64,000 bases of DNA from Enchytraeus crypticus (Eukaryota > Annelida > Clitellata > Enchytraeida > Enchytraeidae), in the NCBI GenBank assembly GCA_905160935.1, contig CAJHZI010000316.1, forward strand, positions 1 to 64,000, given 5' to 3'. The position numbers were made by a program, and so were the translations under genes. This document shows, piece by piece, positions 19,826 to 47,131 of the stretch; within the stretch, counting starts at the first letter, position 1, and each line of letters opens with the position of its first letter. Below the pieces are notes generated by a model that searched no databases, was not told the origin of the DNA, and worked only from the letters and a program-made list of their open reading frames with translations.

Positions 19826-22800
19826 ATGGAAGGCGGAACTAATGGGGTTGACCCTAAACCTCTCGTTGAACAGAAGGTTCAGGAGATTGTCAGCGAAATA
19901 CTTGTTAGTATCTAACTAAAGTGTTGAGTGTAGAAGTAAATATATAACGTAGCACTAAAAATGCATTATGTAGGATGTCTATATCTCTAGCTGTTTTATT
20001 AGGCAATATTATATAAATGCATTATGTAGAATGTCTATATCTCTAGCAGTTTATTAGGCAATACTATTAAGTTGTAAATTAAGATGAGGATGTTGTAAAG
20101 AGTGTTTGGAGGGAAGAGCTGGATGTTAAACCAGAGAGAGGTAGACCATAATTGACGTGAGATGTGGTAATTAAAAAGGACATGAAAAATAGGGGATTGA
20201 CTGATGATATGGTGCGGGACAGATAGGACTGGAGAAAGTCTAGTGTTATCCCAACCCTAGTTAACCTGAGATGTAAGGGAAGATGATGATGATGACTATT
20301 AAGTTGACTAGACTAGTAAATAAATATTCTTGAGGTCTTGGGTGTTTTGGATTTGGTGATAATATTTTTAGAGGAGCCTCTCTCTCTCTAACCTTTATCT
20401 CCTTTGATACAAATCTTCTTAAGTATTTAATGGATAGCTATTAGCTCTTCTGGTCTTTTTATTTTATTTGTTTTTTTTAAATCTCAATTTGAAAATTATA
20501 CCGCTGCCTATTTTTATGCACGAGTTCACCTATTATAATTATTTATCTTATTATATCATTATTTATCTAAGTTCACCATAGTTCACATTTAGTTTATGTT
20601 TTCCTGTTGCATTTGTTTGCTTGTATGATTTGTATGTGAACTCTAAAGGGTTGAATGACCCTTTTTGTGTTCTGATTAAATTGAAATTGAACTAGAACTA
20701 TGTAGAAAGAAAAAAGAAGCCTGTAAAAGAATTTTAAAAGAAAAGTTTCTAGTTAATTAATTCTTTTTTAGTTAATTAACTAGTTGTTGATTGATTGATT
20801 GCAGAGAAGTCAAACGTTGGAGGAAGCTTTTGCGGGGTATATTGTGAGATCAGAGGATGCAGATAGGAAGAGATGGGACTCAACGCTCCACTCTTTTATT
20901 AGTCTATGGCAATCACTGACACCGGTAAAATTATGTCATCAGTCTGACCCCTTCCTCTCTCTCTGTATCTTATCTTGAGAGGGGTAAGATACTCGACCTC
21001 GGATCAGTATGTGTGGGTTTCAAATCCTGGGATCGCCCATCACTGACATCGCTTTCAAGTGCGGAAACTGACGTTAACATTAGCTTTGCCAGCTTCTTTA
21101 TATTCTCTCCCCTAACTCTCTAGCCTTTTGTAGTTTGCGTGCCAATTTTGATTTAATTCAGTATTGCACAATGGATGTGATTGATTACAGGAGAACTCTA
21201 ATTAGTATTGTAATGTACTGTTTTTGTATTGCGTTGCATAGAATTAGAGAATTGTTTTGAGGAACTGAAGCAGTATTGATTGATTGATTATATAGGAGTT
21301 GCAGGACGTTGGATTGAAGCACTATGTAACACTGCTGTACAATCAAACCAGTATAGGACGGTCTGACAGGCTATATGATACTCTTGAGATCCTCGTTCAA
21401 CGAAATATTCTTACTTCAAGGTATTTTGGTAGAAAGTGTAATTTTATTATTCAGAGATTTTAATTTAGCAGTAAGGGGCTATTTATCATCTATCCTTGGT
21501 AATGAGCTATTCATTGGTTTGAAAAGAAGCAGTATTAAGAAATGTTTAGGCAACGTGTCCTGAGTTATACATTTGAAAGTGTTGTTTTAACTTGCTTACA
21601 TTACTTCCACTTGTGTACCAGGTATGATGATTAAATATTGCACGTATTGTTTCTGTGAGAGTTATAAGTTAATGTGTGTGACGTGTACACACTTTTGTCT
21701 ATTTGCAAATGCATATTCATCTAAAATTATGAAAGTAACTTCTTTCAAATGTTTTTTGCATCATCTGGTTTGAAAACTATTTCCTGAGTTTACTCTATAA
21801 TATATGTAGCTAGTCTATGTGGCATATGGTTAAGATTGAATGCAATGTATATTAGTGCCCAGGGTCTCTATTCTTGTAATATTTTATATGGTTCTAGTTA
21901 TTTTTCAGTTTTAATAATTTTTGAACATATTTTTATAGATTGAGATATATTTGGAAAATATATTATTCACCAAACTCTCGCATACTATGTTACTGAATTT
22001 TTTGTTGTTGCTGTTGTATGCACCTGAACCTTTAGCTTACAAGTTCAGTGTTAGTGTACAATGCATATGTAAGTAACAAGGTTGATATACAAGGTTGATA
22101 TATAGGGTTGACAGATTTATGAATATGTTTAGTTAATTTAATATATTATTAGTTCCAGGTGATGCATAGTAGTTTAAGAAATAGATTTCTGTGTATTGTT
22201 GGTCTTGAATATACATGTAAATGAATGTTTGTGATTGTTGTAATGTTATTATTTCCAAAAGATTATATGTGTTTTGGTATTTGTGTTGTAGATGTGTATG
22301 TTGTGTTCATTTTTACATAGGCCTTCCGCCCAACAACATACACATACGAATTTGCACTTATGTGCATGTTAACATGTATGTTTTTTTTTTTTTTTGTATG
22401 TGTAAACTTATGTGTTTTTGTGTGTAGAAGTGTGTGTGATGCACTGATGAACAATGAGAGGCTGACCTACAAACAACCAAACAACTGGGTCAGGGCATTT
22501 AGGTTAATACGTCGTATTGTGGGTGGAAATGATTACAAGGTATCTGTCCCGCTTTCTCTCTCTCTCTCTCCCTCGATTTCTCTAACTCTTTCTCCCTCGC
22601 TTTCTCTCTTGCTTTCTCTCTCTCTCTTGCTCTCTCGCTTCCTCTTTCACTCTCTCTGTCTCGCTTTCTCTAATTCTTTCTCTCTCGCTTTCTCTGTCCC
22701 TTTCACGCTTTTTCTCTCTCTCTCTCTATCTCTGACTCTCTTGCTTTCTCTCTTGCTCTCTCTCTCTCTCTGTCTCTTTCTTTCACGCTTTTTCTCTCTC

Positions 22801-47131: not shown

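Follow-up and report, generated by a model that had tools for sequence, protein, structure and literature searches.

Tandem arrays across the splice junctions of MED23 and of other genes in a probable annelid genome

The growth of introns is commonly attributed to transposable elements. The MED23 gene in the window analysed here (the 64 000 nt at positions 1-64000 of contig C233) raises the question of whether introns may also grow out of their own splice junctions, since an initial annotation of this DNA had described junction after junction of the gene as the repeated unit of a tandem array in the adjoining intron. The question was pursued in the window and in an assembly of 524 Mb in 802 contigs.

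Junction copies in MED23

The gene was modelled by spliced alignment, with a human MED23 sequence as query, and its family identity was confirmed by a profile match (Pfam Med23). The raw model of 33 exons was reduced to 31 by merging raw exons 9 and 10 and by dropping the 9-nt raw exon 18; the start of the model and some exon ends are based on alignment alone. The resulting 31 exons are separated by 30 GT-AG introns, and G+C content is 51% in exons and 34% in introns. One stretch of exon 9 (27066-27113), partly serine-rich, has no counterpart in human MED23, and a scan of viral contigs for a MED23 exon gave no match. In a maximum-likelihood tree of 32 proteins (the window protein and 31 of 120 listed homologues, from 424 found), the window protein adjoins a sequence of 70% identity and then Capitella, with support of 100/99; from this placement the host animal is probably an annelid.

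Each of the 60 MED23 junctions was aligned, with gaps allowed, to its own intron, and a spanning copy was counted when the alignment covered 5 nt or more on both sides of the junction with a score of at least 34. Spanning copies were found at 14 of the 60 junctions, distributed over 12 of the 30 introns (5, 7, 8, 11, 14, 15, 16, 20, 22, 23, 28 and 29) and affecting both sides (nine donors, including the weak case of exon 11, and five acceptors). The same junctions aligned to non-neighbouring introns gave 0 out of 1,624 at the same score. A BLAST comparison of the 31 exons with the window returned 17 extra matches, in 15 of which the end of an exon recurs in the intron that abuts it; the remaining two are the interior neighbour of such a copy (exon 28) and a palindrome matching itself (exon 6). 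Altogether, at least 819 nt of MED23 intron consist of exon copies. The arrays and copies are as follows, junction by junction, all on the + strand.

19826..47131, +, MED23, host gene of the arrays, 31 exons (spliced alignment and Pfam Med23)
23588..23838, +, array across the exon 5 donor, 20 exon nt, unit of ~67 nt
24883..25043, +, array across the exon 7 donor, 26 exon nt, 54-nt unit in three near-identical copies
26386..27009, +, array cluster across the exon 9 acceptor, 21 exon nt, junction copy at 26803-26844
28730..29415, +, exon 11 donor with a weak 28-nt copy at 29388-29415 (score 36)
31358..31493, +, duplicate of the exon 14 donor, 30 exon nt; the copy reads AT, not GT
31847..32034, +, duplicate of the exon 15 acceptor, 75 exon nt
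32836..33136, +, weak duplicate of the exon 16 acceptor, 12 exon nt (score 36)
33646..34055, +, 31-nt array across the exon 17 acceptor, only 6 exon nt
34705..35108, +, borderline 28-32-nt array at the exon 18 acceptor, 4 nt into the exon, AG in 8 of 9 copies
36227..36588, +, 49-nt array across the exon 20 donor, 41 exon nt
36587..36793, +, 32-nt array ending 9 nt before exon 21, its units resembling the acceptor end by eye
37912..38701, +, 47-nt array across the exon 22 donor, 20 exon nt, eight junction copies with GT in all
38805..39350, +, 25-nt array abutting the exon 23 acceptor, 2 nt into the exon, AG in 0 of 9 copies
39548..39816, +, degenerate array at the exon 23 donor, 18 exon nt, seen by gapped alignment only
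40048..40197, +, duplicate of the exon 24 acceptor, 33 exon nt
44022..44226, +, duplicate of the exon 28 donor, up to 59 exon nt (gapped alignment)
45256..45600, +, 50-nt array across the exon 29 donor, 35 exon nt

The initial annotation had listed 17 repeated junctions in about half of the MED23 introns. Copies were recovered at 13 of these, namely at eight of nine listed donors (exons 5, 7, 14, 20, 22, 23, 28 and 29) and at five of eight listed acceptors (exons 9, 15, 16, 17 and 24, of which exon 16 is weak and exon 17 contributes only 6 nt); the exon 18 acceptor is borderline, the exon 11 donor is an addition to the list, and the affected share is somewhat below half. Three candidates were rejected as junction duplicates: the exon 25 donor (no spanning copy in the junction test), the exon 21 acceptor (the array ends before the exon is reached, and none of its copies covers the junction) and the exon 23 acceptor (an exon overlap of only 2 nt, with no AG in any of its nine copies). 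The proposal that existing junctions are sites of intron growth is supported. Spanning units greatly exceed the alignment null, and none of the 30 arrays found in MED23 by a gene-blind detector lies wholly within an exon. The extension of the pattern to one acceptor each of an ERR and a TH1 gene was not reproduced. TH1/NELFCD gave no convincing match with a human query, and no spanning copy was found in the five ERR introns tested, for which exon ends were partly assumed.

8591-12903, ERR-like nuclear receptor (tblastn with ERR-gamma; zf-C4 match and weak Hormone_recep match)

The N-terminal exons of this gene are not fixed by homology; an array begins 2 nt past its donor at 8729.

The splice dinucleotide (GT or AG) is intact in 52 of 56 extra MED23 copies, against 44.8 predicted from identity over the remainder of each copy (one self-overlapping exon 14 copy and all nine copies at the exon 23 acceptor were left out of this count). 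Such a slight excess would suit repeated sites that have a function, for example as decoys regulating alternative splicing, but it is weak, since copies within an array have a common origin and since the alignment rule favours copies with an intact junction. Moreover, every one of the 52 intact decoys would, if used, either cause a frameshift (36) or introduce a stop (16), and we consider a functional role improbable. Since any use of a decoy would disrupt the product, the conserved protein would require splicing at the outermost sites, and the predicted protein thus suggests that these are the sites used. The rule of the initial annotation, by which the functional donor is always the first copy and the functional acceptor always the last, follows from purifying selection on coding sequence and therefore provides no independent evidence of mechanism. 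At exon 22, seven donors, the functional one included, are identical over ten intron bases. Such naturally occurring sets of identical, competing sites lend themselves to testing how the spliceosome selects one of several equal sites.

Placement of arrays relative to junctions

Of the 30 arrays detected in MED23, 12 extend into an exon by 5 nt or more. How far this exceeds chance depends on the null: (i) by array density in flanking DNA (15 arrays in 30.4 kb, outside MED23 and ERR), 0.6-0.8 crossings are expected (P 1e-10 or less); (ii) by growth-corrected placement of single arrays, 4.2 are expected (P = 1e-4), rising to 7.2 with larger units (P = 0.02); (iii) by Monte Carlo placement of all arrays per intron, 7.5-9.2 are expected (P = 0.01-0.11, the highest value with u=best shift); and (iv) with dispersed and simple repeats removed, 9.6-10.3 are expected (P = 0.13-0.25). 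With MED23 taken by itself, strict crossing is no longer significant under the most stringent nulls. The clustering of array edges at the junctions is firmer: 19 of the 30 arrays have an edge at most 10 nt inside a junction, where 9.0-10.5 are expected (P <= 5e-5), and after removal of repeats the figure is 20 out of 30 against 11.8-12.3 (P = 2e-4). There is little bias between donor and acceptor sides in this gene.

As MED23 had been picked as striking by the initial annotation, other genes of the genome are the fairer test. Five were fixed before looking (XPO1, VCP, POLR2B, CLTC and EEF2); the counts cover XPO1, POLR2B and CLTC, together with POLR3B, which was added as an incidental match. 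A spurious last exon of 21 nt in POLR2B and its acceptor match (score 53) were left out, as were the unreliable exons 1-5 of POLR3B. The first POLR2B exon on contig C86, at the contig start, was kept though weak (only its last few residues match), and the last CLTC exon, of 17 nt, is included in the junction count and dropped from the pooled array analysis. An assembly break within POLR2B leaves one part of the gene at the end of contig C612 and the other at the start of C86, a contig of 17 kb. A separate fragment (C754:259418-259537) with 68% identity to XPO1 residues 8-47 is perhaps a pseudogene or paralogue.

Strong spanning copies, with a score of at least 50, were found at 17 of 149 junctions in the four genes. 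By gene, they were seen at 4 of 40 junctions in XPO1, 6 of 39 in POLR2B and 7 of 58 in CLTC, compared with 10 of 60 in MED23 at the same score; the null over all five genes gave 1 in 4,288, with spurious introns still contained in the POLR2B and POLR3B parts. GT or AG is present in all 17 best copies. In POLR3B no spanning copy was found in 12 junctions, where one alignment stayed below threshold (score 33). The pattern therefore recurs in three of the four other genes and is not special to MED23; enrichment at boundaries outside MED23 holds for the four genes pooled and not for POLR3B by itself.

The arrays of the four genes tell the same. Eighteen of 56 cross a junction, compared with 4.3-5.4 expected from density (P = 6e-7 to 1e-5) and 10.3-11.7 under the placement null (P = 0.006-0.019), and 38 have an edge at most 25 nt inside a junction, where 19-20 are expected (P < 1e-4). 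These edges lie mostly on the 3' side (29 versus 10 within 25 nt), while MED23 has little such bias, and one mechanism may not cover both. By eye, many acceptors of XPO1 and POLR2B follow sequence that is rich in TG and not in CT, a composition that may promote slippage on the 3' side. With all five genes pooled, 30 of 86 arrays cross, against 6.2-8.3 expected from density (P = 5e-12 to 5e-9) and 17.6-19.7 under the placement null (P < 1e-4 and P = 0.002), so that junction crossing is 1.5 to 5 times above expectation, depending on the null.

Such an excess would also be expected from neutral tandem duplication without any preference for junctions, if arrays within exons were purged and crossing arrays were detected for longer owing to coding constraint on one of their copies. 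The non-significance of strict crossing in MED23 under the most conservative nulls (P = 0.11-0.25) agrees with such an account, and a doubled detection time for crossing arrays gives P values between 0.003 and 0.34, according to unit definition and array subset. However, among arrays of at least 90% identity, which should be detectable for nearly equal times, 22 of 51 still cross compared with 3.3-4.4 expected from density; for the four other genes the figures are 14 of 34 and 2.4-3.0, which argues against mere longer detectability. Furthermore, 59 of the 86 pooled arrays have edges within 25 nt of a junction or beyond it, where 30-31 are expected (P < 1e-4), and these include edges that stop short of the exon and are free of coding constraint. 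Neutral duplication without junction preference is accordingly a possible but rather doubtful explanation.

Tandem arrays are hard to assemble, and the break in POLR2B illustrates the difficulty at one of the loci studied. Nevertheless, most copies differ from one another (mean identity to the junction unit is 0.82-0.99, by array) and the pattern is found at several unrelated loci, so that an artefact of assembly is very improbable.

Known arrays at exon-intron boundaries

The initial annotation had presented such a gene as undescribed, which does not hold. According to the available text of PMC3087553, tandem repeats lie across exon-intron boundaries of the amphioxus globins Gb6 and Gb9 and leave splicing undisturbed; the same source recalls Adh3 of amphioxus as an earlier case, named 'mirages' and associated with somatic instability. 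The accessible part of PMC3902484 adds amphioxus PGBD5 and cites TnC as further mirage cases. As in MED23, the amphioxus units are minisatellite-like (10-72 and 150-160 bp in what the two papers give), they extend across junctions on donor and acceptor sides, and they carry AG or GT in many copies. What differs, as far as these excerpts go, is that the present host is probably an annelid, that the pattern affects 12 of the 30 MED23 introns and recurs in three of the four further genes, and that an excess at boundaries has been measured. Normal splicing was reported for the amphioxus genes, whereas for MED23 it is suggested by an intact and conserved predicted protein.

Boundary minisatellites have also been described in segmentally duplicated human genes, where units with a mean of 30 bp elongate introns and 27 intron modifications were counted (PMC2812944, in the portion available). 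The expansion of minisatellites at exon-intron boundaries and the lengthening of introns are common to both. The human cases, as described there, concern recent paralogues in which cryptic splice sites yield novel introns and transcripts often keep the repeat; the present genes are conserved, and no new intron is evident in them.

The duplicated DNA carries AG/GT here, as it does in the creation of introns by tandem duplication (reviewed in PMC3443670) and in introns that lie within human tandem repeats with dual-specific splice sites (PMC10809524). In the cases set out in the consulted parts of these two sources, an intron arises between the copies, whereas here existing introns grow. Origin of the present introns from tandem duplication of exonic AGGT segments (the Rogers model) would draw on similar raw material, tandem duplications with AG/GT, and would be recognized by an in-register match between the surroundings of donor and acceptor. 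No such match was found in any of 103 introns, the 30 of MED23 included (maximum score 6.5; mean 2.8 compared with a null mean of 2.7). This argues that the introns were lengthened and not recently created; the test sees recent events only, since in introns created long ago the signature would have been lost, and we regard creation by this route as most unlikely.

In the potato RdRp gene a duplicate likewise crosses an intron-exon boundary and inherits splicing signals, but there, by the available account (PMC4974935), it made a new intron, whereas the present duplicates appear to stay within the old one. Nearer to the probable host, the earthworm metallothionein gene has large minisatellite arrays in intron 1, and exon 4 duplicates that are absent from the transcript; units across exon-intron junctions, as in MED23, are not stated in the text available from PMC12783039. 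Searches of open-licence papers turned up no annelid in which the pattern had been described at such a density. The kind of array is thus already known, as 'mirages', and what is new is the host and the scale across genes. The extension of mirages from cephalochordates to a distant phylum means that they either arose independently more than once or have gone largely unnoticed.

Probable lengthening of existing introns

We think it likely that the arrays are boundary-anchored minisatellites of the mirage type, which lengthen existing introns by junction-spanning tandem duplication. DNA straddling an exon-intron junction would be duplicated in tandem; the spliceosome would stay with the exon-proximal (outermost) site, and the extra copies, including what had been part of the exon, would become intron, each duplication adding one unit to intron length. 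Arrays may then be expanded and homogenized by further unequal exchange or slippage. Duplications that change the protein would be removed by selection and intron-only additions would persist, the extra copies being presumably neutral. Duplication across junctions would in that case be a second route of intron growth, readable directly from the sequence and recurring in unrelated genes of one genome.

The excess at boundaries may reflect either preferential initiation of duplication at junctions or a short length of the ancestral introns. Under the latter, nearly any duplication would have fallen near or across a junction, and later insertions and array growth would have lengthened the introns. 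The composition of the MED23 introns bears on this. Of 23,163 intron bases, arrays occupy 7,728, dispersed repeats 2,331 and simple repeats 1,690, and the bases left unassigned amount to 9 in intron 20 and 29 in intron 22, which is what short ancestors would predict. The median residual over the MED23 introns is nevertheless 353 nt, the nine introns in which no array was detected are still 275-990 nt long, and the clustering of edges at most 10 nt inside junctions outlasts the removal of repeats, as described above (20 of 30 arrays). Short ancestral introns are, to our mind, a somewhat unlikely source of the excess.

Tentatively, a stronger form of the junction-duplication reading can be proposed, in which tandem duplication is preferentially initiated at junctions genome-wide in this lineage, perhaps at the step in base composition or at a nucleosome edge, and boundary minisatellites are one of the main drivers by which introns grow, some of them being composed almost wholly of copies of their own junctions and ends. 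Intron 20 is an example: its 49-nt array on the donor side is followed by the 32-nt array that by eye resembles the acceptor end, leaving over 9 of 535 bases. A mutational or chromatin effect at the exon/intron G+C step is a guess at the cause.

Other repeats were noted in the window. Forty-three segments, each 60 nt or longer, reappear at distant positions within it (for example 51771-52134 and 55329-55770), and 22 of them sit in MED23 introns, so that insertions of dispersed repeats also lengthen the introns of this gene. A 20-nt satellite of ~33.5 copies (TRF) occupies 1483-2152, and a reverse-transcriptase-like piece at 53566-53811 (Pfam RVT_1, E = 2.8e-6, below the curated cut-off) is perhaps part of a LINE-type element.
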